Positions 26,331 to 45,093 of a stretch of 46,760 nt of DNA are shown piece by piece. The position numbers were made by a program, and so were the translations under genes. A model generated the notes under the pieces. The model worked only from the letters and a program-made list of their open reading frames with translations. It was not told the DNA's origin and searched no databases. Source of the stretch: Gammaproteobacteria bacterium. Its GTDB lineage: Bacteria > Pseudomonadota > Gammaproteobacteria > Steroidobacterales > Steroidobacteraceae. The stretch lies in the NCBI GenBank assembly GCA_020851435.1, contig JADZCS010000232.1, forward strand, positions 1-46,760. Reading direction: 5' to 3'. The first letter of the stretch is position 1, and each line of letters starts with the position of its first letter.

Positions 26331-27800
26331 CTAGGCTTCCGGGGCATCGGTCGCGGGCGGTTTCTTCTGCTTGAAGCCGCGGCGCTTCATGTCGCCCCAC
26401 TGGCGCCTGCGGCGCAGCGCCTGGAACAGTGCGTTCACCTTCACGAACGACAGGTACTGGCGGAAGCCGAAGTTCTCGAGGAAGCCATACGCCAGCAGCC
26501 GCAGCAGGTCCCGCCAGCGCGGATAGCGCCTGAACGAGATCTCCTCCAGCACCAGTGCACCCATCGACAACAGCGCACCCACCACGAAGGCGACGATCAG
26601 GAACAGGATCAGGTAGGTGCGGTCCAGGATCCCCAGGAACCAGGCCAGCGGCACCATGATGTAGCCCAGCACCTCGACCACCGGGGCGAGCAGCTCGAAG
26701 GCCACGTACCAGGGAATGCCGAACATGCCGACGGCGCCGTACTTCGGCCGGAACATCATGCCGCGGTTCATCCAGAGCGTCTGCAGCAGGCCGCGATGCC
26801 AGCGCTCGCGTTGCCGGGTCAGGACGCGCATCGACTCGGGAACCTCCGTCCAACACACCGGGTCCGGCACGAACACGATCCGGTACTTGCGGTCCTGGTC
26901 GCAAAGGTGGCGATGCAGCCTGACGACGAGTTCTGCGTCCTCGGTGTCGGTTGCACTCGAATAGCCGCCGACCTCGACGACCTCGCGCTTGCGGAACAGG
27001 CCGAACGCACCCGAGATGATCAGCAGCGCGCGGGCCGAGCTCCAGCCGGCCCTTCCGGCCAGGAAGGCACGCAGGTATTCCACGACCTGCATCACGGCGA
27101 TGCCGCTGCGGGGCAGGCGCGCCTCGACCACGTGGCCGTGCGACACCACGCAGCCGTTGGCGACGCGCACGATGCCGCCCGCCGCCACAGTCTCGTTGGG
27201 GAATTCGATGAAGGGCTTGACGAGCCTCAGCAGTGCCTCTTCCTCGATCAGCGAATCGGCATCGATCGAGCAGAACAGAGGGTAGCGGCTGGCGTTGAGG
27301 CCGGCGTTGAGCGCGTCCGCCTTGCCGCCGCGCAGCTTGTCGAGCACGGTCAGGTTGGCGTGCGTCATCGAGCGATAGATCGCGTTGATCGGGTTGCACT
27401 TGAGGCGCATGTGCAGCGGCGTGTCGGTGCGCCGCAGGTCGAAAGTCTGGACCAGGCGCTCGAGCGTGTCGTCCGTCGAGCCGTCGTTGATCACGATGAT
27501 CTCGAACTCGCCGTAATTGAGCGCCAGCAGGGAGCGAAGGCTCTCGACGATGGTCTTCGACTCGTTGAAGGCCGGCACGAGCAGGGAAATCGGCAGCGTC
27601 AGGTCCGATTGACGGATCTGGGAATAGTCGGAGACGAAGATGCGCCGGACGAAGCGCCACAGCGAGCGCAGGGACACCCAGAAGATGCTGAGGTAGCCCA
27701 GGTTGATCAGCGCGAAATAGACGATGATGAACTTGTTGAAGCCGATGACGAAGTCGGTCAGCACTGCGGTCATCGTGGCGTCGGCACCTGGCAGGCTCAT
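26331..27800 (-). CDS. Membrane glycosyltransferase family 2, processive (PgaC/cellulose-synthase-like)
   Basis: A 489-residue inner-membrane GT2. It has an N-terminal transmembrane segment (about 18-43) and a cytosolic GT-A domain with LLVPAFNESKTI, VINDGSTDDT, DxD in CSIDADS (Asp180, Asp182), TED (286-288) and the QxxRW motif as QRERW (330-334). Hydrophobic C-terminal segments follow at about 361-425 and 435-465. D-D-TED-QxxRW is the hallmark of processive beta-glycan synthases (PgaC, hyaluronan, cellulose). No PilZ domain is visible. It is the last gene of a four-gene unit and overlaps the HEAT-repeat gene by 4 bp. Polymer unknown; UDP-glucose or UDP-GlcNAc are reasonable donors. Confidence 0.88.
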   Translation of the reverse strand: MSLPGADATMTAVLTDFVIGFNKFIIVYFALINLGYLSIFWVSLRSLWRFVRRIFVSDYSQIRQSDLTLPISLLVPAFNESKTIVESLRSLLALNYGEFEIIVINDGSTDDTLERLVQTFDLRRTDTPLHMRLKCNPINAIYRSMTHANLTVLDKLRGGKADALNAGLNASRYPLFCSIDADSLIEEEALLRLVKPFIEFPNETVAAGGIVRVANGCVVSHGHVVEARLPRSGIAVMQVVEYLRAFLAGRAGWSSARALLIISGAFGLFRKREVVEVGGYSSATDTEDAELVVRLHRHLCDQDRKYRIVFVPDPVCWTEVPESMRVLTRQRERWHRGLLQTLWMNRGMMFRPKYGAVGMFGIPWYVAFELLAPVVEVLGYIMVPLAWFLGILDRTYLILFLIVAFVVGALLSMGALVLEEISFRRYPRWRDLLRLLAYGFLENFGFRQYLSFVKVNALFQALRRRRQWGDMKRRGFKQKKPPATDAPEA

Positions 27801-29035
27801 GTTGCTGCCTCGTCCGTCGCCGGTTCCGCCGTGATCAACTGGTCGATCGCCGTGCGCACGGTGGCATCCTGCTGCCGGTCACGGATATCCCGCAGGCGGT
27901 CGGCGCTCTGGCGGGACGCCAGCGATCGCACGAGTCCTTCCGCCGTGCTGCGCTCGGCGGAGTCCGATGACGCCAGTGCTGCCAGGCGGCGATCCAGTTC
28001 GCCTGACGACTCCAGCATCGACAGGGCCTGGTCGCGGGCGAAGCGGTCCGGGTCGCCCAGCAGGGCGACCAGGGCATCCAGCCCGGGCGTGCCCAGCTTG
28101 CGCAGTGCATCGGCTGCGTTCGAGCGCACCCACCACTCGCGGTCCTCGAGCGCCTTGGTGAGCTGCGGAATGGCCGAGATCGCCGCCAGGTCACCGAGGG
28201 ACTTCGCGGCCATGGCCCTCACGGGCCACTCGGGATCGGCGAGTGAAGCCACGAGTTCGGCTACCGCGTCCGCGGCCTTCAGGCGGCCGATCCCGGCGGC
28301 AGCGCGTGCGCGGATGTCGCGGTCCTCGTCGTTCAGGCAGTTCACCAGGAACGGCGTCTGCTCAGGCGTGCCGAGGCGTGCGACCAGGTCGAGGGTCGCG
28401 AGCCTCGATCCCCGTCCCATGGCTGGGAATGCCGCGAGGATCTCGAGCAGCACTCCGGTGCCCATGTCGGCGAGGATGTCGGAGATGCGGATGACCGACC
28501 AGCGGCTGTCGTCGGTGAGGGCGCGGATGAGCGCCTGGCGCGCCTGATCGCCGCCGAGTGCACCCAGGGCTTTCGCGGCCCGCATGCGCACGTCGAAGAT
28601 CTTGTCGTTGAGTGCGTTGACGAGGGCAGGCGCGGTGTCCGGGTCCCGCAGCACGCCCAGGGCCTCGGCCGCGCGGCCGCGCTTCCAGCTGCTGCGGTTG
28701 CCCAGTTGCCGGGTCCAGTCGTCGACGACGCCATTCCGGCGCAACCATTCGGTGATGCGCGCCCGTGCGCGTGCGTCGCCATCCGGCAGAAGGGCCAGGC
28801 AGACCTCGACGAACAGCCGGCGGTCGATGCGGCTGCCGAGGTGCTCGAGCGCCGGGGGCACGCGCTCGGGATCGCTGTCCAGCCAGGTCTCTGCAGCAGC
28901 GACGAGCACTGCACGGCGACGGCCTTCGTAGCTGATCGAGAGATCCGACAGATATCGCCGAACGACGACATACACCATGAGCCCGCACAGCAGCAGGATC
29001 AGGAGCATGATCGCGAGGGCGACGGCGGCTCTCAT
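27797..29035 (-). CDS. Membrane-anchored HEAT-repeat protein of the polysaccharide operon
   Basis: A 412-residue protein with one N-terminal transmembrane segment (about 4-26) followed by Arg-rich RRYL and GRRR, so by the positive-inside rule the rest is probably cytoplasmic. From about 110 onward it is built of HEAT/PBS-lyase-like helical repeats: KRGRAAEALGVLRDPDTAPALVNALND, VRMRAAKALGALGGDQARQALIRAL, IRARAAAGIGRLKAADAVAELVASLAD, VRAMAAKSLGDLAAISAIPQLTKALED, VRSNAADALRKLGTPGLDALVALLGD. No catalytic motif is seen. Four-bp overlaps on both sides couple it to the barrel protein and the glycosyltransferase, so a scaffold or regulator of the synthase is likely. No homologue is part of the classical Pga, Bcs, Alg or Pel machineries. 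Confidence 0.85.
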   Translation of the reverse strand: MRAAVALAIMLLILLLCGLMVYVVVRRYLSDLSISYEGRRRAVLVAAAETWLDSDPERVPPALEHLGSRIDRRLFVEVCLALLPDGDARARARITEWLRRNGVVDDWTRQLGNRSSWKRGRAAEALGVLRDPDTAPALVNALNDKIFDVRMRAAKALGALGGDQARQALIRALTDDSRWSVIRISDILADMGTGVLLEILAAFPAMGRGSRLATLDLVARLGTPEQTPFLVNCLNDEDRDIRARAAAGIGRLKAADAVAELVASLADPEWPVRAMAAKSLGDLAAISAIPQLTKALEDREWWVRSNAADALRKLGTPGLDALVALLGDPDRFARDQALSMLESSGELDRRLAALASSDSAERSTAEGLVRSLASRQSADRLRDIRDRQQDATVRTAIDQLITAEPATDEAAT

Positions 29036-30618
29036 CCGGAGTTCTGCCCGAAGCGCCAGACCAGTCGTGCGCCGAAGCGCGTGTAGCGCCAGTTGTCACT
29101 GCCCTGGGAGGCGTACGAGCCACCCTCCGCAAAGCACTCCAGTCGTGCGGCGGCGGTGACCTGCCATCCGACGCGGGCGCTGAGCAGGTAATACGGATCC
29201 TGCGAGGTATGGGCGCCCATGAAGTCGAATGACTGCAGGCCCACCTCGAGGTTGACGTCGTAGTCGACCTTCTTGTCCGCGGACGCGGGCCCGAAAGCAT
29301 GCAGGGTGCCGCCCAGCGACACGAAGTTGGACGGATCGAAGTAACCGCCGTTCGTGTCCTTGCGCCAGTCGAGCCAGCGGGTGACGGCGCCGGCCTGGAA
29401 GGTGTGGGCGCCCGATTCCCAGCTGCGGTTTGCGGCCAGGTTGGCGCTGAGCCGCGTGTTGTCGTCCGAGGTGTCCCAGGCAGTCGCTTCCGCGAAGACG
29501 AACCAGTCGTCACCGACGCGGCCGCTCGCACCGGCGGAAAACGCATCCACGACGATGCGATTCTCGATCAGGGGCACGGAGTAGCGGTAGGGCTCGCGTC
29601 TCGCGCTGACCCAGCCGCCCCAGGTCTTGCCGGCCGGAAACCGGTAGGCGAGGCCCCAGTCAGTGACGTTGTAACTGCCGGTCGTCGGTCCCTCCAGCTG
29701 GTCCAGTCCGGCCATGACTTCGACCTGATGGCGGGCCCGCGGCGAGAAATCGGCGATGACCTGCGTCGACCTGATCGAGCCGCGCTGTCCGGCGGTATAG
29801 ACGTCGTAGTCGGCGTAGTTGAGGCGCAGGCCGACTCCGTAAGGCAGCTTGGTGCCGGCCTCGAGGTGATAGCCGCTGAAGAGGTTGCTGTCGGTGTCGT
29901 CCATCTGGTCCCAGCTGACCGACACGAAGGGAGCTGCGCTCGCGCGCGTCGCGCGCAGCAGCTCGTCGACGTCCCGGTCGTCCGGATGGGCGGCCTTGAG
30001 GCGACGGGCTGACGCGTTGGCGCTGCGCACGTCACCCTGCCAGAGGTCCAGGTAGGCGATGCCGATCTCTGCTTCGCGCGTGCCGACCCCGGCGCTAAGC
30101 ATGTCCTGATACCGCTTGCGTGCTTCGGCGAGGTCGCCGCTCCAGGCATAGCTCTGCGCGAGGCCCAGCATCGCAGCGGCGTTGCCGGGGTGGTCCGCAA
30201 GGATCGACTGGTAGGCCTTTCTCGCCGCCAGCAGCTCTCCCGATGCAGCCTGTGCACCGGCAAGGCCGAGGCGCGCATCCAGGAGCGCGGGTTCCAGCTG
30301 CAGCAACTGCTCGAAGGCGCGTACCGACTCGGGATGGCGGCCGGCCCAGGAGAGCACCTTGGCGCGTTCCAGCAGTGCGAAGCGGTTGGTCGGGTCCTCG
30401 GCCAGCGACTGGGCGTACAGCGCCAGCGCCTCGTCGTAGCGACCGGCCCAGGACAATTGCTGCGCGGACTCGTTGCGCTTCTGCAGCTCGTCAACGGTTG
30501 CGGGCGGCGTCCGGGCGGCGGGCAATTCCGCCGGGGGCGTCGCGGCCTCCGCAGTCGCCGACGCGAACGCGAGTGCGGCCAGGACGGAGGAGACCAGGAT
30601 CGGGCGCATCGTGTTCAT
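29032..30618 (-). CDS. TPR plus outer-membrane beta-barrel protein (YaiO/PgaA-like exporter)
   Basis: A 528-residue exported protein. The signal peptide ends near ATAEA (25). TPR units cover about 45-205 (LSWAGRYDEALALYAQSLAEDPTNRFALLERAKVLSWAGRHPESVRAFEQLL and following), and the C-terminal half (about 225-528) alternates aromatic/polar beta strands, for example GVGLRLNYADYDVY, HQVEVMAGLDQL, WGLAYRF, WFVFAEATAW and RFGARLVWRF. The periplasmic TPR plus barrel layout is that of PgaA, BcsC and YaiO, which pass nascent polysaccharide through the outer membrane. It overlaps its neighbours by 4 bp on each side. Confidence 0.86.
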   Translation of the reverse strand: MNTMRPILVSSVLAALAFASATAEAATPPAELPAARTPPATVDELQKRNESAQQLSWAGRYDEALALYAQSLAEDPTNRFALLERAKVLSWAGRHPESVRAFEQLLQLEPALLDARLGLAGAQAASGELLAARKAYQSILADHPGNAAAMLGLAQSYAWSGDLAEARKRYQDMLSAGVGTREAEIGIAYLDLWQGDVRSANASARRLKAAHPDDRDVDELLRATRASAAPFVSVSWDQMDDTDSNLFSGYHLEAGTKLPYGVGLRLNYADYDVYTAGQRGSIRSTQVIADFSPRARHQVEVMAGLDQLEGPTTGSYNVTDWGLAYRFPAGKTWGGWVSARREPYRYSVPLIENRIVVDAFSAGASGRVGDDWFVFAEATAWDTSDDNTRLSANLAANRSWESGAHTFQAGAVTRWLDWRKDTNGGYFDPSNFVSLGGTLHAFGPASADKKVDYDVNLEVGLQSFDFMGAHTSQDPYYLLSARVGWQVTAAARLECFAEGGSYASQGSDNWRYTRFGARLVWRFGQNSG

Positions 30619-33410
30619 TGGGCGGGAACGTCGTTGATGGCGGTCATTGCGTCGCGCAGTGCCTGCAGTCCGTGCTTGGGCTCGAGCACCACGGCAGGTT
30701 CCCCCCAGGGCTTCAGCTTCAGCGCGGCCGGCGGCAGCTGGTTTGTGCCGTCACCCAGCGCGGGGTTGGTGGCACAGACCGTCAGCCGTATGCGGTCGGT
30801 GGCCTGCATGCCGAACTGCGGCGCTGGCGCGGGGTTGTGCAGCACCTGGGTGGTGGAGGGATCGGCGAAATTGAGCAGGCCCCAGGGCAGCCGCAGCTCG
30901 ATGGTTCCATCGGCGCCGACGGCGACGTCGGTCCGCGTGTCGAATACCTGGGAAGCCGGATCGAGGGAGCCGAAGCGGAGTTGGCCCGGATGGACCTGCT
31001 CGGGCGCGAACCGCGTGCCGTCACGCCCGAAGCGTTCACGGTTGGTTTCGAGCGACGGGCGATCGAATCTTCCGGTCGGCTGCAGCGGTGACACCAGGAC
31101 CAGGGATGCATTCGACGACGCGGGATGGCGGACCTTGTACGGCGGCGTGACGAGCAACTCACTGGCCCCGGGGCCGCGCAGCACGACCGCGAATTCCATA
31201 CCGGTCCTGGCCTCGCAGGCAGCCGGCAGCGGCAGCTGCCTTTCCCCACGATCATCGGCATAGGTGTCCAGGCCGATGGAGAGGGCGAGCGCGTTCCAGT
31301 CGACGGGGCCGCGGCCCGCGGTCTGGATCAGCAGGTACACCCAGCCGGCGTCATAGGTGGCACGCAGCGATTGCAGGCTGTTCCAGCCCGTGCCCGCCGC
31401 GCGGGCCTTCGCGAGCACTGGCTGCTTCGACCATTCGGCTGCGCTGCCGTCCACGCGCACCGGTGCAACGGGGCGATTGGCGAACAGTCCGTAGGCCTGT
31501 TCGGGGCTCTCGGCGTTGAACCAGCGCGGGCGGTTGTCTTCGGGAATGGCAAACGGGTTGGTGGACCAGGTGCCCTTGAACCACTCGTCCATGAACTCGA
31601 ACACCACGCCGCCCGCCATGCGCTCCCGGCTGATCGATCTCAGCAACCTGGCCGTCTGGCGCATCGCTGTAGCCTCGTCCTGGCCGCCGTGGTGCAGGCC
31701 GTCGGGCTGCAGGTGCGCGATGCCCCGGCTGGTCGACATGCCGTACTCGGCCACGAGTACCGGCTGCCGGCCATGGTGTGCCTTGAGGTCGCGCAGGTAG
31801 CCCGCGTAGCGGTTGATGCCGTCCTCGTCCCTGACCCTGGCGTAGCCCGGGTCGAGGTTCATGAAGTACGGGAAATTCGGGTAGATGTGATAGGACGCAA
31901 ACACGCCGGCCGGGAATCGCTGCGTACCCGCCATCACGCTCGCATCCACGGTCACGCCGTCGTCGTCCCAGGCCGGTCCTGAATAGGTCGCCAGCGGATC
32001 GCCCTTGATCTTGTGGCGCAGGACATTTTCTTCGTCACGCGTCGCTTCGGTCGGGTGGACGAGAGGATCCAGCGTCGGCCAGTTCGCGAAGCTCAGCGGT
32101 CTCGCCGCCCCGTGGCGATGCGCCTCGTAGGCGGCGGTGTAGTCGAGCGTGCGGGCGATCCAGCATTCCATCGGCCGGGCCGCGGTGACCTTGACGAACT
32201 CACCGGCGTGACTGCAGGAACCCGGGCGCAGCGATTCGTAGGTCGCGACGGCGTACGGTTCCCACTCGCGGCCGACGATCCAGCCCAGCGTGTAGCTGGA
32301 CGCGTCGGTGTCATAGACGCCGCGGGCGTTGCCACGTTCCGGCGCGAAGATCAGGTCGCCGTGGACCGCGTCGACGACGCGCGCGATCTCCTTGTGGAAC
32401 GCCTCGAGATAGGCGGGGTCGTCGAAGTTGTCGTCCGCGGGGAGATCCGCCCACACACCCTGCAGCAGCCACAGGCGCCGGGCGCCGGGGGACTGGTTGT
32501 GCTTGACCAGCGCCTTGTAGAACGCCGGCGGCAGAAGGGTGTAGACGCGGATCGAGTTGGCGTCGAGCCCTGCGATGCGCGTGAGCCAGTCCGTCCACGT
32601 GGCTTCGTCCTCGGGGGCCTCGGACGCGAAAAAGCCAGGCCGGGCAGGCCCGAGGTTCACGCCCTTCACGAACTGCGGGGTCCACTTGCCGTCGGCACCC
32701 AGGATTTCCAGGTAGTCGTTGCCCGCCCGTGCGAAGTAGCGGGGCTCGGGCCCACCGGTATCCTTGCGCAGGCGCATCTCGCCGCTGCCGCCCGTCCGGC
32801 GCTCGGCGAGCGTCACGAGATACAGGCCGAAACGATCACCCGGGCGCTTGCGGGAGAACTTGCGGGCCACGTCGAGCGCCGGCTTTGCGGCCGGGTCGCC
32901 GATCGGCAGCCGCTGCAGCGCCTCCTTGAAGCCTTCCGCGGCGTCCGCGGACTCCGGCGCGTAGTCCAGCGCCAGCGTGAAGGAACGGACCGCGTCCCCA
33001 TTCTGCTTCTTGCGCATCGCCACGTAGCCCAGGCCGAGCGCAGCGTCGCTGGAGTGCCGGACCCGGCCCTGCGCGATCCGGAAGATGTCCTCGGCCTCGT
33101 CTACGCGGTCCGCGCGGTACGAGCACCAGCCGAGCGCCATCCACTCGTCGTGCTGCACCAGCTGTTTCTCGAGCCAGGCCTGGGTCGCGCGCCAGGTTCC
33201 GGCGAGTCCTGCTGCGCCGGCGACTTCGGTACGGCCGGCCTCGTACAGCGGGCGCAGGTCAGTCTCGACCTCGTTGCAGGAGGTCGCCGGTGCCTTGTCT
33301 CCGCCGCCGCTGCAACCAGCGACGATCCCCGCAACACCCAGCACGGCCGACGCAGCCAGTCTCGCTACAGTCGATCGGGCGGTTGGGTTCACGCGGTAGC
33401 CTGTCGCCAC
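30615..33410 (-). CDS. Multidomain lipoprotein: TPR, clan-A glycoside hydrolase-like TIM barrel, CBM9-like C-terminus
   Basis: A 931-residue envelope lipoprotein. The lipobox VAGC gives Cys33. TPR-like helices span 85-165 (YRADRVDEAEDIFRIAQGRV, SFTLALDYAPESADAAEGFKEAL). A TIM barrel spans about 225-640: FVKGVNLGPARPG, NSIRVYTLLPPAFYKALV, a candidate acid/base Glu384 in GREWEP, ASYHIYPNFPYF, and a candidate nucleophile Glu555 in VLVAEYG. The last 280 residues (VRVDGSAAEW, LRATYDAGWVYLLIQT, IELRLPWGLLNFADPS) look like a CBM9/DOMON sugar-binding domain. It heads the four-gene operon. By analogy with PgaB's hydrolase domain it could trim or process exported polymer. The GTG at 33410 has no good Shine-Dalgarno sequence; another GTG at 33392 is possible. 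Confidence 0.8.
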   Translation of the reverse strand: MATGYRVNPTARSTVARLAASAVLGVAGIVAGCSGGGDKAPATSCNEVETDLRPLYEAGRTEVAGAAGLAGTWRATQAWLEKQLVQHDEWMALGWCSYRADRVDEAEDIFRIAQGRVRHSSDAALGLGYVAMRKKQNGDAVRSFTLALDYAPESADAAEGFKEALQRLPIGDPAAKPALDVARKFSRKRPGDRFGLYLVTLAERRTGGSGEMRLRKDTGGPEPRYFARAGNDYLEILGADGKWTPQFVKGVNLGPARPGFFASEAPEDEATWTDWLTRIAGLDANSIRVYTLLPPAFYKALVKHNQSPGARRLWLLQGVWADLPADDNFDDPAYLEAFHKEIARVVDAVHGDLIFAPERGNARGVYDTDASSYTLGWIVGREWEPYAVATYESLRPGSCSHAGEFVKVTAARPMECWIARTLDYTAAYEAHRHGAARPLSFANWPTLDPLVHPTEATRDEENVLRHKIKGDPLATYSGPAWDDDGVTVDASVMAGTQRFPAGVFASYHIYPNFPYFMNLDPGYARVRDEDGINRYAGYLRDLKAHHGRQPVLVAEYGMSTSRGIAHLQPDGLHHGGQDEATAMRQTARLLRSISRERMAGGVVFEFMDEWFKGTWSTNPFAIPEDNRPRWFNAESPEQAYGLFANRPVAPVRVDGSAAEWSKQPVLAKARAAGTGWNSLQSLRATYDAGWVYLLIQTAGRGPVDWNALALSIGLDTYADDRGERQLPLPAACEARTGMEFAVVLRGPGASELLVTPPYKVRHPASSNASLVLVSPLQPTGRFDRPSLETNRERFGRDGTRFAPEQVHPGQLRFGSLDPASQVFDTRTDVAVGADGTIELRLPWGLLNFADPSTTQVLHNPAPAPQFGMQATDRIRLTVCATNPALGDGTNQLPPAALKLKPWGEPAVVLEPKHGLQALRDAMTAINDVPAQ

Positions 33411-39102: not shown

Positions 39103-39145
39103 CATGGCCGGCCAGCCGTTCCGCGTTCGGCCTTGGGGAAACGTG

Positions 39146-40177
39146 ATGAATCTAGGCGGACTCCTTGCAGTCATCGTTCTCGCCGCCAGCGCAGGTTGCA
39201 GCCGGGCGGATGGGCCGGCGTTGCCCGTTGTGACCCACCACTCCATGAAGCAGGCGCCCGCCGCCTTGCTGGCCGGAGAGGCGGTCGCCGTGAGCTACTC
39301 GGGGTTCCGGCAGGGCCAGCATCCGGATCGCGGCGACGGAGCGATCAACCCAAGCGATCAGGAAGTGCTCGAGGATCTCGAGATCCTCGTGCGGCACGGC
39401 TTCAGGCTGATTCGGGTGTATGACTCCGGCGACAATACGCGGACGGCGCTCGAGCTGATCCGCAAGCGCGATCTGCCGATGAAGGTCCTGCTGGGAATCT
39501 GGCTCGACGCCGAGATCAGCAATCACGAAGGCTGTCCGTGGCTCGAGGAGCCCATTCCAGCGGCGAAGCTGGCGGCCAACGTCGTGAAGAACAGCGCCGA
39601 GATCGAGCGCGGCATTGAGCTCGCACGGCGCTACGGTGACATCGTGGTTGCCGTCAACGTCGGCAACGAAGCGCTGGTCGACTGGAACGACCACATGGTC
39701 CCGCTGGAGAAGGTCATCGCTTACGTCCGCCGCGTGAAGGCGGCAGTCGATCAGCCGGTGACCGTGGCCGACAATTATCTCTGGTGGGCACGGTACGGCG
39801 CGCCGCTCGCCGCGGAAGTCGACTTCCTTGGGGTACACATCTATCCCGTCTGGGAAGGCAAGACGATCGATGAGGCGCGCGCGTTCACTGTGCAGAACAT
39901 CGCAGCGGTGCGCGCAGCGCTGCCGGGCAAGCCAATCGCGGTCCTGGAGGCGGGGTGGCCGACGGTCGCCAGCGAGTTCGGCGATGCCGCCAGCCAGCAC
40001 AACCAGGCGCGCCATTACGGCGAACTGCGGCAGTGGGCCGCGGAGACCAACACGACGGTGTTCGTGTTCGAGGCCTTCGACGAGCCCTGGAAAGGGAACC
40101 CGGACGATCCACTCGGTGCAGAGAAGCACTGGGGCCTGTTCAACGTTGATCGCACTGCCAAGGCAGCGATCAAATGA
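39146..40177 (+). CDS. GH17 family lipoprotein (putative beta-1,3-glucan-active enzyme)
   Basis: A 343-residue exported TIM-barrel glycosidase. ATG 39146 has GGGGA 6 nt upstream and opens a lipoprotein signal ending SAGC (Cys18). The barrel starts at AVSYSGFRQGQHPDRGDGAINPSDQEVLEDLEIL; strand motifs include FRLIRVYDSGDNTRTALELI. The catalytic acid/base is Glu175 in NVGNEAL and the nucleophile Glu268 in VLEAGWPT, both in GH17 positions (the family has VGNE and ETGWP). VHIYPVWEGK and FVFEAFDEPWKG also fit. Probable action on beta-1,3-glucan oligomers at the envelope. It is one of the intact genes of the island. Confidence 0.85.
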   Translation: MNLGGLLAVIVLAASAGCSRADGPALPVVTHHSMKQAPAALLAGEAVAVSYSGFRQGQHPDRGDGAINPSDQEVLEDLEILVRHGFRLIRVYDSGDNTRTALELIRKRDLPMKVLLGIWLDAEISNHEGCPWLEEPIPAAKLAANVVKNSAEIERGIELARRYGDIVVAVNVGNEALVDWNDHMVPLEKVIAYVRRVKAAVDQPVTVADNYLWWARYGAPLAAEVDFLGVHIYPVWEGKTIDEARAFTVQNIAAVRAALPGKPIAVLEAGWPTVASEFGDAASQHNQARHYGELRQWAAETNTTVFVFEAFDEPWKGNPDDPLGAEKHWGLFNVDRTAKAAIK

Positions 40178-40666: not shown

Positions 40667-43600
40667 TCAAACTCCCAGCAGGGCTTCCCTGGGCAAATCC
40701 AGCGAAATCTGCCGAATGCAGCCGCTGCGCCGGAACAGCTCCGAACTCAATTGCGCCGGCAGCGACAGCTGCGGCAACGTCTGAATGATGCCGTCCTCCA
40801 GCGCAATTTCCAACGTTGGACGCCCTTCGCTGCACAAACGATAGACGACCGGGACCTGGCACCAGGTGAAGACCAGCCCCGACGCCGGGACCGTCAGTTC
40901 CTGCCACTGGCCGTGGACGTCGAGGAATCGGAACGGGCGAGGCTCCGGCGCAAATTCGCGCGCGCGCAGCAGCCCGGGCTCGAAGCGTACTTCGCCATCC
41001 GCGACCCGCAGGCCCAACTCGCCAAAGCGGGTAAGCACTTCTTCCTTGACCTGTCCGGTCATTCCGGGCTGCTGGGCGCCCCCATGTCCGGGTGTATGTG
41101 AATAGGGGTCCGTAGGGAAGGCGCCAAACTCCGCCGGCGTCTTGTTGAAGCCAATGCCTTCGCGTACCCGGTAGTACAGCGCGCCGAGGCGCTGGCAGAC
41201 CTCTGCGCCTGCATTGCCGTCGCGCGCTGCGAAGAAATTCTCCTGCATCGCGAGCAGCAGCTTCGACACCATGTGCCAGTAGATGCAGCCGAGACCCTCG
41301 AAGCCGAACATGCTGCCGGAGCGACCGGTAAATTCGCGGTGCCTGAATACCCTTTCATAGAGGGCGCGCAGCGGCCCACGCGAGGCCTCGAGGTCGTCGC
41401 CGTAGAGTCCGGACAAGGCATCGAGCCGCGCATCCAGATCGCCCACGTTGGTGAAGTCGGCATTGAAGCGATAGCCGCCGTCGGCGTCCTGCGAGACGAT
41501 CCGGTCATCCTTGGCCGCGATCATGCGCCGCAGCAGGGCGAGTCCCTCGAATGCGTCGGGCGGGATGCGGTTCTTCTCGAGAAAGCCTGGTAGCGGACGG
41601 TCGGCATACAGCATGAAGGAGCGCTGATCGGCCCGGTAGATGTCGCTGCCGAACAAGGTCTCCGCCAGCGCGGCGGCTTCCTGCGGCGCGATCGCGCCTG
41701 AGCTGAGAGCGGCGACCTGCCCCTCGAGCATGAGATACAGTGGGTCGACGCCGACCTGGCCCCCCTTCAGGTCCAGCAGGTTGTAGGCATTGTAGGTTCC
41801 ATCCTCGCAACGGTTGCTGCGGATGCTGTGGTCGATCGCGGCGAGGGTGTCGTCGAGCAGGGCCATGACCTGCCCGAGCGGTCGGTCCACTTTCCCGGAA
41901 AACGGCTGGTCGCGGTAGACGGAGTGCCGGTAGCGGCTCGCCGCCAGGCCCAGTTCCTGCATCGAGTGCCAGCGCTGATCCGGGCCGATCGGCTCGTTCC
42001 CCAGCAACGGGCGGATGTGTGCGAGCGCGGCGGATGTGTCGGCCAGCCATTCGCCGACTTCCGCCGACAACGCGACAGGCCCGGGTTCCTCGGCCAGCAG
42101 CTCCTGCAGGAAGCGCACGTATCGGCGCATGTAGTACAGCGTGACCATCGAGACACCGTGGCCGACCAGTGCGTTGTTCGCGTCGTTCCACTCGGGTCGC
42201 TGCGTGTTGAGCCAGATCCCGCCGTCGACGACCAGGTTGCCGAGCTTGGCAAGCAGGGGCAAGAGCAGCTTTTCCAGCAGATTGACCTGGTAGACCTCGC
42301 CGTCGCCATCGAGAACCAGCTTCCCGTCCGCGCCCATGACTTCCACCCTGTCCGCGATCCGCGCGGCGAGGGCCGAGTCATAGTCCACTGTTCTCTTCGG
42401 GTCCGCGACGATCTCGGCGAAGCACCTGATTCGATAGGGGACGTTGGCATAGCTGAATATGGGGTGGTGCAGGAGCTCACGGAGGCGGCCCGGATGAAAT
42501 CGCCTTGAGTGTTCCAGGAATTTCAGCAGGTAGACGATCTGGTGGTCGCCCCAGTAGCCGATGTGACTCCACGGGTTGCCCGGGTCCTCGACCTCCCAGT
42601 CGATACCCTCGCGCGTGATGCGATACGGATTGTATCCATCGACTGTCGAAGCATTGACGAACTTGGTAACGACGTACTCGATGAACTCCGGGTAGCTGAA
42701 TGTCAGCGCCTCCCAGTTCTGGAAGATGTCCCGCCAGTTGCCTTCATAGGACAGCAACGGTTCGCCGCGAGCGTCCTTCAGCCTGATCGCAAACATGTTC
42801 CATGGGCGACTCGGATCGCCGTGACGGCGACCGAAGGTGATCGGAAGGTACTCGCAGCAGAGCCTTTCCAGCTGCGGGTCGCCGGTGCTTCTCACGGCAT
42901 ACAGCAGGTCTGCGATCGTCAGTGTCGCGTGGAGGCCGGCAAGCAGCGTGCCGTGACGCTCGTAGACGCCCGCATTGAAGTGGCGAACACTGCTGGCGAA
43001 ATCTGCGGCCGGCACCCTGTACTGGTCGCAGAAGATCCCGCCGCGAAGGACATTGAACAGCACATTGGCGTAGTGATGCGCCGTCACGGGCTCCTCGGCA
43101 GCGGATTGAAACCCGTCAGCGGCGGCGATGATGCGCGCCAGTTCATCGCAGCCCGAGTCGACGGAACGCGCCACGACCTCGGCCGCAGCGGCCGGATCCG
43201 CGAGCTGCCGGATGATGTCGAGGACCTGTCCCTGGGTTCGTCCGACATCGGCCACGATCTGCCAGCGCTGCGACTCGCGGCGCGGCAGCACGAGGCTGAC
43301 ACCGAGGAAATAGGCGCCGCGGATGCCACGCTTCCGGTCTTCCTGCACCACGGGCTTGCCGAGCCGGAAATCGTTGAGTTGCAGCGACGAGAGCAGCAAC
43401 GTTGGTGAGTCCAGGCCGAGGCCGTAGACGACATTGGCTCTCAGGGATTCAGACGGTTCGGCGCGGTCCGAGATCCTGGAGTAGAGCGCGTACATCGCGA
43501 GCCCGGTATCCGCGTCGAGTTCGGTCCACTTGTACGCGTCCACGAGGTTGCTCGAGTTCGTCTGGACGAGCAGCGGCGTGCCAGCGGGAAGGATGTTCTG

Positions 43601-44137
43601 CAGTCCATCGACCAGCTCGAGCCGCAACGTATCGTCCCCGAGATTCTGCAGCTCGCACAGGCGCACGAAACCATGCCGGTCGCTCGTGGCCCACGTGTAG
43701 CGGAAGGCCAGGCCCAGGTCATGGTTCACTTCCTCGAAGCGGAGCTTGTTGCCCAGTACGCTCTTGTAGAGATTGCGGCTGGTCGCGAAGCGTCCATCGT
43801 GTTCCCGGTTGAACGGCTCCCAGATTACGTGCCGGCCGTGCAGACCGACCCGCACGATCGTCCTGCAGCCAGTGTGCGGATTGCACTCGTGAATCCTGTC
43901 GACGGGAAGGTAAGGAAACAACGCAGTTTCCGGCGAAACGCGTCCGGCGGTCAGTCCTCCGGATGAAGAGACGAAGAGCCAGTGGTCGGCGCTCGAAATG
44001 ACGCTGACAAAGAACGGCGGCATCTGGTCGACATTGCGAATGACGTAGTACCGCTCGCCGTCGACGTCGACGAATCCTCCGGCGACCGCGTCCTGGCCCG
44101 TCATGCCGGTCGCATCGCCCGGTGCGTTCGGCCTCAT
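40667..44137 (-). CDS. Very large GH94/clan GH-Q-like protein (putative glycoside phosphorylase or hydrolase)
   Basis: 1156 residues, no signal peptide, so cytoplasmic. The N-terminus is a beta-sandwich-like region (GFVDVDGERYYVIRNVDQMPPFFVSVIS, HWLFVSSSGGLTAGR, TALFPYLPVDRIHE, IWEPFNREHDGRFATSRNLYKSVLGNKLRFEEVNHDLGL). The middle is an (alpha/alpha)-barrel-like part with EGNWRDIFQNWEAL (465-478), VDGYNPYRITREGIDWEVEDPGNPWSHIGYWGDHQIVYLLKF and PEWNDANNALVGH (648-660), which recalls the DWND region of cellobiose phosphorylases. This is the type often labelled 'cellobiose phosphorylase'-like, but its activity is not established and it does not match what I recall of GH149/GH161. The ATG overlaps the CBM9 chimera stop by 4 bp. 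Glucan context suggests intracellular beta-glucoside breakdown. Confidence 0.6.
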   Translation of the reverse strand: MRPNAPGDATGMTGQDAVAGGFVDVDGERYYVIRNVDQMPPFFVSVISSADHWLFVSSSGGLTAGRVSPETALFPYLPVDRIHECNPHTGCRTIVRVGLHGRHVIWEPFNREHDGRFATSRNLYKSVLGNKLRFEEVNHDLGLAFRYTWATSDRHGFVRLCELQNLGDDTLRLELVDGLQNILPAGTPLLVQTNSSNLVDAYKWTELDADTGLAMYALYSRISDRAEPSESLRANVVYGLGLDSPTLLLSSLQLNDFRLGKPVVQEDRKRGIRGAYFLGVSLVLPRRESQRWQIVADVGRTQGQVLDIIRQLADPAAAAEVVARSVDSGCDELARIIAAADGFQSAAEEPVTAHHYANVLFNVLRGGIFCDQYRVPAADFASSVRHFNAGVYERHGTLLAGLHATLTIADLLYAVRSTGDPQLERLCCEYLPITFGRRHGDPSRPWNMFAIRLKDARGEPLLSYEGNWRDIFQNWEALTFSYPEFIEYVVTKFVNASTVDGYNPYRITREGIDWEVEDPGNPWSHIGYWGDHQIVYLLKFLEHSRRFHPGRLRELLHHPIFSYANVPYRIRCFAEIVADPKRTVDYDSALAARIADRVEVMGADGKLVLDGDGEVYQVNLLEKLLLPLLAKLGNLVVDGGIWLNTQRPEWNDANNALVGHGVSMVTLYYMRRYVRFLQELLAEEPGPVALSAEVGEWLADTSAALAHIRPLLGNEPIGPDQRWHSMQELGLAASRYRHSVYRDQPFSGKVDRPLGQVMALLDDTLAAIDHSIRSNRCEDGTYNAYNLLDLKGGQVGVDPLYLMLEGQVAALSSGAIAPQEAAALAETLFGSDIYRADQRSFMLYADRPLPGFLEKNRIPPDAFEGLALLRRMIAAKDDRIVSQDADGGYRFNADFTNVGDLDARLDALSGLYGDDLEASRGPLRALYERVFRHREFTGRSGSMFGFEGLGCIYWHMVSKLLLAMQENFFAARDGNAGAEVCQRLGALYYRVREGIGFNKTPAEFGAFPTDPYSHTPGHGGAQQPGMTGQVKEEVLTRFGELGLRVADGEVRFEPGLLRAREFAPEPRPFRFLDVHGQWQELTVPASGLVFTWCQVPVVYRLCSEGRPTLEIALEDGIIQTLPQLSLPAQLSSELFRRSGCIRQISLDLPREALLGV

Positions 44138-44766
44138 CGCAGCACCTCCAGCACGAGCTTGCCGACGAAGTTCTCGCGAAACTCGCTGCCGTCGTTATCG
44201 CAGTAAGCCAGCATCAGCCCGATGACCTTCCCGGCGACAGGCGCCACCGGCGTATTCCCCAGGGAACCGTCCTCCTGGTACCGCTCCGGGTAGACCCCTA
44301 TGGCGAGTTCCCAGACGATCCCGTCAGTGCGCTGTTGCCAGCGGCTCTCGACATGTTCCGACAAGTCGAGCCGCCGCCTGTCGGTCCCTATGTCGACGGC
44401 CTGACTGTCGAGTGAAACATGGTACGCGAAGGCATTGTGGTTGTACTGGTGATCGCCGCCCGAGAAATCCTCGTCGATGAAGATCTCGAGAGTGTCGTCG
44501 TCATCGTCGAGTCGCAACTCCGAATGGCCGGCCAGCCCGACGGCGATCCGGCCGTTCCAGGGCCGGGTCCAGTGGTCGGGACTCTTCATTCCCGTGAGCC
44601 CGCAGAGACCGCCCACCGTCGCCCCATTGCAGTCGGTATCCCAGCCCGCGGCTACGGCGTCGCCGATGGCTGCCGAATAGTCGCCAGGGCACGAGCACAG
44701 CGCCGACGCGACCAGGGCGAGGTTATTATTGATCGCATGCACGGGCGAGAGGTCTGCATACCGCTG
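44134..44766 (-). pseudogene. Chimera of ADP-ribosylglycohydrolase C-terminus and CBM9-like domain
   Basis: The frame joins two unrelated gene pieces. About 44766-44520 encodes HQRYADLSPVHAINNNLALV, then DYSAAIGDAVAAGWDTDCNGATVGG, SPDHWTRPWNGRIAVGLAG. VHxINN, GWDTDCNGAT and DRIxxGLAG are C-terminal hallmarks of ADP-ribosylglycohydrolases, whose N-terminal two thirds are missing. From about 44520 to 44134 the protein continues LEIFIDEDFSGGDHQYNHNAFAYHVS and GKVIGLMLAYCDNDGSEFRENFVGKLV, the end of a CBM9-type carbohydrate-binding domain. The frame runs on past 44766 only as antisense of a halogenase fragment, so no natural start is visible. An internal deletion between neighbouring genes explains it best. 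Confidence 0.7.
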
Positions 44767-45093
44767 GTGAAGGCGGAGATCGAGTGCATACGCGACTTCA
44801 TCATCCTGCACTGCCATGTGACGCGGCGGGCCGATTCGGCGTACTGGAACGCATGTCGCGAGATGGAGATCCCCGAGACCCTGGCCCACAAGCTGAGGCT
44901 GTTCGAGTCCAGCGGCAGGATCTTTCGCGACAACAACGAATTGTTTTCAGAGCCGTCCCGGACCGCGGTCATGGTGGGGCAGGGCATCGTACCGAACACC
45001 TATCACCCGTTTGTCGACAACCTCAGTGATGCCGAACTGCAGGACCTGCTGGTCGGGGTCCGGGTAGGGATAGCACGGCTGGTTGCGCGACAG
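44767..45093 (+). pseudogene. C-terminal fragment of a flavin-dependent tryptophan halogenase
   Basis: The plus strand reads VKAEIECIRDFIILHCHVTRRADSAYW, CREMEIPETLAHKLRLFESSGRIF, and VGQGIVPNTYHPFVDNLSDAEL. These are the conserved C-terminal blocks of tryptophan-halogenase-family proteins (EIExIRDFxILHY, DSxFW, CRxMxIPxxLxxKxxLF, GQGxxPxxYHP). The N-terminal FAD-binding portion is absent; sequence before 44767 belongs to the opposite-strand ADP-ribosylglycohydrolase piece, so the junction is sharp. Such halogenase-like genes accompany TonB receptors in carbohydrate loci of Xanthomonadaceae and Caulobacteraceae. No promoter or start is left. Confidence 0.7.

Follow-up and report, generated by a model that had tools for sequence, protein, structure and literature searches.

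The question raised by this locus is whether four overlapping genes encode a known synthase-dependent exopolysaccharide system, or a system of a new type. Such systems have been defined by four parts, namely an inner-membrane synthase, a c-di-GMP-binding domain or co-polymerase, a periplasmic modifying enzyme, and a TPR region with an outer-membrane pore, and five systems are listed under this definition (PMC7112194). The stretch of DNA analysed here (hereafter the window) is one entire contig of 46,760 bases, belonging to a 3.27-Mb draft genome; neighbouring genes such as lapB point to a proteobacterium. A preliminary description of this DNA had read four minus-strand genes with 4-bp overlaps as a new synthase-dependent exopolysaccharide system, following the logic of the Pga and cellulose systems but with a different hydrolase and a HEAT-repeat protein without counterpart. 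Gene order, co-conservation, gene fusions, the fold of the glycosidase and its conserved putative active sites were computed here. On the strength of sequence and structural models, I consider it likely that the operon encodes a synthase-dependent exopolysaccharide machine of a type not characterised before, in which a HEAT-repeat protein is a co-subunit.

The coordinates given earlier for the four minus-strand ORFs are exact (Table 1), and all three junctions read ATGA, giving the 4-bp overlaps. A second genome of the same order (G045, locus L009) carries all four genes in the same gene order, with identities to the window proteins of 56, 48, 52 and 70% in operon order, and ATGA overlaps at two of the three junctions. 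Since this relative keeps them, the four ORFs are real coding genes. A scan for promoters and terminators gave nothing above chance. Among 59 genomes of the order, G045 is the one other genome with the full four-gene set, and in 369 genomes drawn from the class the only match at 1e-20 was the window's own genome, which makes the system very rare among related genomes. In a tree of the GT2 proteins, those of the window and G045 cluster with that of an Acidobacteriota MAG (L011; SH-aLRT 99), where the gene order is GH, TPR-barrel, receiver protein, HEAT and GT2. This grouping of sequences fits horizontal acquisition, but is no proof of it.

Table 1. Positions of the operon genes and of features within their products, in window coordinates.
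Feature	Position	Strand	Remark
Secreted lipoprotein glycosidase (GH), 931 aa; TPR, clan GH-A-like TIM barrel and C-terminal beta-sandwich	30615..33410	-	
Lipobox V-A-G-C, Cys33	33312..33323	-	read from sequence
TIM-barrel part of GH, about residues 226-645	31476..32735	-	AlphaFold model; best solved structure GH157, Z 33.3
Glu382, putative acid/base after beta-4 (GREWEP)	32265..32267	-	Glu in 44/47 relatives
Glu555, putative nucleophile on beta-7 (AEYG)	31746..31748	-	Glu in 45/47 and Asp in 2/47 relatives
C-terminal beta-sandwich of GH, about residues 665-915	30666..31418	-	AlphaFold model
TPR and outer-membrane beta-barrel protein, 528 aa, predicted exporter	29032..30618	-	
HEAT-repeat protein, 412 aa; one N-terminal TM helix, repeats predicted cytoplasmic	27797..29035	-	
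Predicted TM helix of HEAT protein, residues 7-25, then positive charges	28961..29017	-	
GT2 polysaccharide synthase, 489 aa; TM helices on both sides of catalytic domain	26331..27800	-	
DAD (DxD) motif, residues 180-182	27255..27263	-	
TED motif, residues 286-288	26937..26945	-	E-D invariant in five relatives
QRERW (QxxRW) motif, residues 330-334	26799..26813	-	

The assignments made previously for three of the products hold. All three motifs reported for the GT2 are present, and it is predicted to be a processive-type, inner-membrane polysaccharide synthase; no PilZ domain was found in it with Pfam. In the TPR-barrel protein the TPR is certain (Pfam TPR_19, 3.9e-16), and the outer-membrane barrel is predicted from weak Pfam matches, to OMP_b-brl in the C-terminal region of the window protein (0.0045) and to PgaA_barrel in that of G045, together with the C-termini of relatives. 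Outer-membrane barrels often end in F, L or W, and many relatives align across the barrel half and possess one of these as C-terminal residue. The HEAT protein shows one N-terminal TM helix and a match to Pfam HEAT_2 at 9e-35, consistent with a membrane anchor, and its repeats are predicted to be cytoplasmic because arginines follow the helix (positive-inside rule).

For the GH, the lipoprotein character, TPR and TIM barrel that had been described were all recovered, with a lipobox at Cys33 and the TPR at the N-terminus, but not the CBM9-like part: with a threshold of E 0.05, Pfam matched CBM9 in none of the 47 family members, so that a CBM9 identity for the C-terminal region is not supported; in the model this region is a beta-sandwich. 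The GH of G045 has LQGC at the position matching the lipobox. No Pfam glycosidase family matched the GH above chance, and a sequence-profile search against solved structures gave nothing beyond the TPR. An AlphaFold model was obtained from an alignment of 47 sequences, with a mean pLDDT of 91.3. A fold search with it identified as top match among solved structures the endo-beta-1,3-glucanase GH157 (LaGH157; Z 33.3, rmsd 2.5 over 317 residues, 16% identity), followed by GH2 enzymes (beta-glucuronidases, Z 26-28). The placement of Glu382 after beta-4 and Glu555 on beta-7 is the clan GH-A arrangement. The model thus indicates a clan GH-A-like glycosidase that falls in no Pfam family, and in which both putative catalytic glutamates are kept. 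It differs from LaGH157 in sequence, at 16% identity, and in possessing the additional TPR and beta-sandwich.

Two further observations concern members of this GH family. In the Planococcus GH (L008:7821-9890) the alignment indicates that both putative catalytic glutamates are lost, and this protein may be a pseudoenzyme. In Paenibacillus cellulosilyticus (L007:11827-17140) two GH paralogues lie in tandem, the second of which has a long N-terminal extension resembling the GHs of roughly 1080 aa found in Bacillus; no Pfam family was found in one example of the latter (L083).

In order to determine whether the genes travel together, as the preliminary description had proposed to check, genome contigs were scanned with the GH alignment. 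Of the 547 relatives recovered, the analysis retained the 80 best matches; these are the closest to this GH and not a random sample. They belong to Bacillota (43), Gemmatimonadota (16), Acidobacteriota (9), Spirochaetota (7), Deinococcota (3), Nitrospirota (1) and Calditrichota (1). A GT2 gene is found in 62 of the 80 loci, accompanied by a separate HEAT gene in 46 and present as a HEAT-GT2 fusion in 13; no HEAT was found in the other three, two of which start at a contig edge. The 18 loci without a nearby GT2 correspond to contig ends, Thermus and many Gemmatimonadota. Fifteen of these 18 genomes carry a GT2 elsewhere, and HEAT adjoins 15 of 16 such distant copies, the sixteenth beginning 43 bases from a contig end. 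Examples of the GH-HEAT-GT2 core come from Acidobacteriota, Gemmatimonadota, Nitrospirota, Spirochaetota, Bacillota and Deinococcota, and the three parts occur together across at least seven bacterial phyla, lying next to one another in the majority of the 80 loci. The core is present, without the barrel, on annotated plasmids of Deinococcus radiophilus and Planococcus maritimus, and P. cellulosilyticus possesses HEAT and GT2 with its two GH genes.

An independent test used an even draw of 151 genomes from the class to which Bacillus pinisoli belongs, with cut-offs of my choosing (1e-40 for GH, 1e-100 for GT2, and 1e-10 for HEAT, with one query). GH was found in 32 and GT2 in 35 of these genomes: 31 have both, one has GH only, four have GT2 only and 115 have neither (Fisher 1e-26, a value that ignores shared ancestry). 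HEAT was detected in 23, every one with GT2, and its coordinates adjoin those of a GT2. GH and GT2 co-occur even where separate contigs or long distances divide them (G437, G476, G580, G573). The genes are thus strongly co-conserved in both the 80 loci and the 151 genomes. The unit is not the four genes originally proposed, but a three-gene core of GH, HEAT and GT2, to which the TPR-barrel is added in some diderm phyla. Among the best 80 loci, 24 of the 27 that come from Acidobacteriota, Gemmatimonadota, Nitrospirota and Calditrichota have the TPR-barrel, and all 53 that come from Bacillota, Spirochaetota and Deinococcota lack it; because of this distribution I regard it as an add-on, as in Pga versus Ica.

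The HEAT protein is a near-constant partner of the GT2. In the 13 fusions (seven in Spirochaetota, six in Bacillota) it is joined to the GT2 N-terminus, giving proteins of about 1000 aa with the layout TM-HEAT-TM-TM-GT2-TM. A model of one such fusion has a clear helical HEAT solenoid, with pLDDT of about 80-88, and a poorly modelled GT2 part (30-60), and for this reason no docking of HEAT on GT2 was read from it. In the last repeats, residues 300-311 of the window protein (EWWVRSNAADAL) form an EWWVRxNAAxAL motif that is strongly kept across distant loci; it is a possible contact site for the GT2.

I then considered the genes that surround the core. In 45 loci the gene immediately upstream of HEAT or GT2 does not belong to the core and codes for 250 aa or more, and 42 of these genes were scanned (leaving out L029, L065 and L087). 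All 42 encode a receiver (REC) domain and 38 a GGDEF domain, while many Bacilli also have a receiver and a histidine kinase downstream of the core. Genes of c-di-GMP and phosphorelay signalling lie beside the core in Bacillota and Spirochaetota, which is beyond what the window alone could show: no GGDEF or PilZ gene was found next to the operon in the window, in a genome that has 16 GGDEF domains. The HEAT protein is a candidate c-di-GMP receptor or adaptor. In 12 of the 42 upstream genes, an ODP domain of the diiron oxygen-sensor type is fused to GGDEF and receiver, for example ahead of a HEAT-GT2 fusion (L045:1994-3778), and oxygen control of matrix synthesis is possible in these cases.

Other neighbours are more local. 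The preliminary description had suggested that the convergent galU may supply UDP-glucose; this is not borne out, as no ORF in any of the fetched loci matched the window GalU in blastp at 1e-15, and its adjacency is for that reason taken as a local accident, not a part of the system. In the window, a GH17-family lipoprotein (39104-40177, plus strand) is encoded downstream of uvrB, 5.7 kb upstream of the operon, and is possibly linked to glucan metabolism. Further along, a frame of 1156 aa (40667-44137, minus strand) has no Pfam match, and overlaps by 4 bp a frame (44134-44889) with matches to CBM9_1 and ADP-ribosylglycohydrolase; the former looks like a large uncharacterised carbohydrate enzyme.

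Family profiles of the operon proteins were compared with E. coli proteins. The GT2 profile matched PgaC with 116.8 bits, YaiP with 47.4, BcsA with 22.4 and NfrB with 12.9, making PgaC the nearest E. coli synthase, at 27% identity. The GH profile matched neither PgaB nor BcsZ, and the HEAT profile matched nothing. The TPR-barrel profile matched BcsC and PgaA, and NfrA weakly; local blastp matches to BcsC lie in its TPR part. Within the logic shared with Pga and cellulose synthesis, only the GT2 therefore resembles a specific component, PgaC, and the different hydrolase and the HEAT protein without counterpart are confirmed.

Set against the four-part definition (PMC7112194), the GT2, with its motifs and flanking TM helices, is the predicted synthase, the lipoprotein with its modelled TIM barrel the putative modifying enzyme, and the TPR-barrel protein the predicted export part; for the c-di-GMP part no PilZ domain was found, and the GGDEF domains seen upstream in most scanned relatives are not found in the window. 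The operon is not orthologous to any of the E. coli Pga, Bcs, Nfr and Yai loci, which together with the co-conservation supports its reading as a new system, with an exopolysaccharide as the probable product. It resembles Pga/Ica in its PgaC-type membrane GT2, its glycosidase lipoprotein located outside the cytoplasm, the restriction of the TPR-barrel exporter to diderms, and c-di-GMP genes nearby in relatives. In contrast, its GH is of another family and has no deacetylase domain, and a HEAT partner is found instead of PgaD. Membership was rejected, as the GT2 scores 135.6 bits against a cut-off of 422.3 for TIGR03937 (PgaC/IcaA), no Pfam deacetylase was found in the window GH, and the profiles gave no significant match to PgaB or PgaD. 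With Bcs it shares a GT2 synthase, a glycanase and a TPR-barrel exporter, but its GT2 has no PilZ and resembles BcsA only weakly, no BcsB match was found, and the GH is unrelated in sequence to BcsZ; the GT2 scores 42.4 bits against the CelA cut-off of 699.1, and membership was likewise rejected. Orthology to Nfr or Yai was discarded, since YaiP and NfrB match at a general GT2 level only, YaiO is unmatched and NfrA is weak.

Pel synthesis depends on PelF (a GT4), PelG and PelD as synthase and membrane proteins, whereas the synthase here is a GT2. The two are alike in having a core common to monoderms and diderms, and an exporter in diderms only. They also share a neighbour: the P. maritimus core is preceded by genes for a polyphosphate-polymerase-domain (PPP) protein, DUF4956 and CotH (L008:4940-7796), and the CotH/PPP/DUF4956 cassette is an accessory group beside Gram-positive Pel loci (PMC7112168). 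The sfz stalk cluster of Zetaproteobacteria is likewise a proposed polysaccharide synthesis cluster with a GT2, but includes a BcsB-like protein and has its GT2 joined to a domain resembling EpsE of type II secretion, with no HEAT described (PMC8250860), and identity with it was ruled out by gene content. Identity with the Romboutsia mixed-linkage glucan synthase was also rejected, as that enzyme has a PilZ domain and HEAT repeats are not mentioned for it. A search of openly available journal papers found no published description of a HEAT-linked exopolysaccharide system, which is weak evidence of absence. The new element relative to known synthase-dependent machines is the HEAT protein, and the system is apparently undescribed.

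Which polymer would be made is less clear, as the clues conflict: a beta-glucan and a hexosamine polymer are both candidates, and different members of the system may make different polymers. A version of the preferred explanation that names the polymer has the machine exporting a beta-1,3- or mixed-linkage beta-glucan, with the GH acting on the product as endo-beta-glucanase or transglycosylase. The GH157 fold match, the GH17 lipoprotein of the window and a GH16 gene upstream of a regulator-GT2-GH set in four Acetobacterium loci all point to this. I put it forward only tentatively, as the identity to GH157 is 16%, clan GH-A includes many specificities and GH2 beta-glucuronidases also score well, GH16 and galU neighbours are not general among the loci, and the GT2 is nearer to PgaC than to BcsA. 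That last observation argues for a diverged Pga/Ica system producing a hexosamine polymer, in which the GT2 would be a PgaC relative, the GH would take the role of the PgaB hydrolase and HEAT would replace PgaD. In agreement with this, the Calditrichota GH bears a polysaccharide deacetylase domain, and in Paenibacillus doosanensis a GlmS-type gene (GATase and SIS; L087:2390-4243) is located directly upstream of HEAT. The GT2 score far under the PgaC/IcaA cut-off, the lack of deacetylase and PgaD in the window, and the GH profile without PgaB match nevertheless make this reading rather unlikely.

It is improbable that the polymer is kept in the periplasm or cell envelope, in the manner of osmoregulated glucans or a wall-linked glycan. 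The Bacillota, Spirochaetota and Deinococcota loci without an outer-membrane exporter would agree with such retention, but not the TPR-barrel frequency in the four other diderm phyla, nor its fusion to the GH into a single protein in one locus (L023), and neighbours with receiver and GGDEF domains typically go with secreted matrix polymers. That the locus serves polysaccharide degradation or glycan modification, with the GT2 incidental, I find very hard to credit: it would suit the GH, a secreted lipoprotein whose putative catalytic residues are conserved, but the genomic linkage of this protein to GT2 is tight even in split loci, HEAT-GT2 fusions exist, and no uptake genes recur near the core among the neighbour clusters.

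For the preferred reading, that of an exopolysaccharide machine with a HEAT co-subunit, the following model for polymerisation, export and regulation is suggested by the sequences and models. The GT2 would polymerise a nucleotide sugar at the inner membrane, the chain being fed through its own TM channel. HEAT, anchored by one helix and predicted to face the cytoplasm, probably scaffolds or gates the GT2, and perhaps relays a c-di-GMP or phosphorelay signal. Outside the inner membrane the lipoprotein glycosidase would trim or remodel the chain, and in diderms such as the window host the TPR-barrel would pass it across the outer membrane.

Machines have been assigned to only about five of the synthase-dependent matrix polysaccharides (PMC7112194). 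On balance, I lean towards the view that an unrecognised and widespread machine stands beside these five. It would be characterised by a constant HEAT co-subunit and a GH of clan GH-A that falls in no Pfam family; it is found in both monoderms and diderms, the TPR-barrel being confined to some of the latter, and is often wired to receiver-GGDEF proteins, with HEAT as a potential c-di-GMP or phosphorelay gate of the synthase. It would add a new kind of synthase partner, the HEAT solenoid, and a new glycosidase family. The machine is found in hundreds of genomes, in Bacillota, Gemmatimonadota, Acidobacteriota, Spirochaetota and Thermus/Deinococcus, and its culturable and harmless hosts Priestia, Neobacillus, Acetobacterium and Thermus make the system directly testable. 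It could account for matrix formation in soil, thermophilic and anaerobic bacteria.
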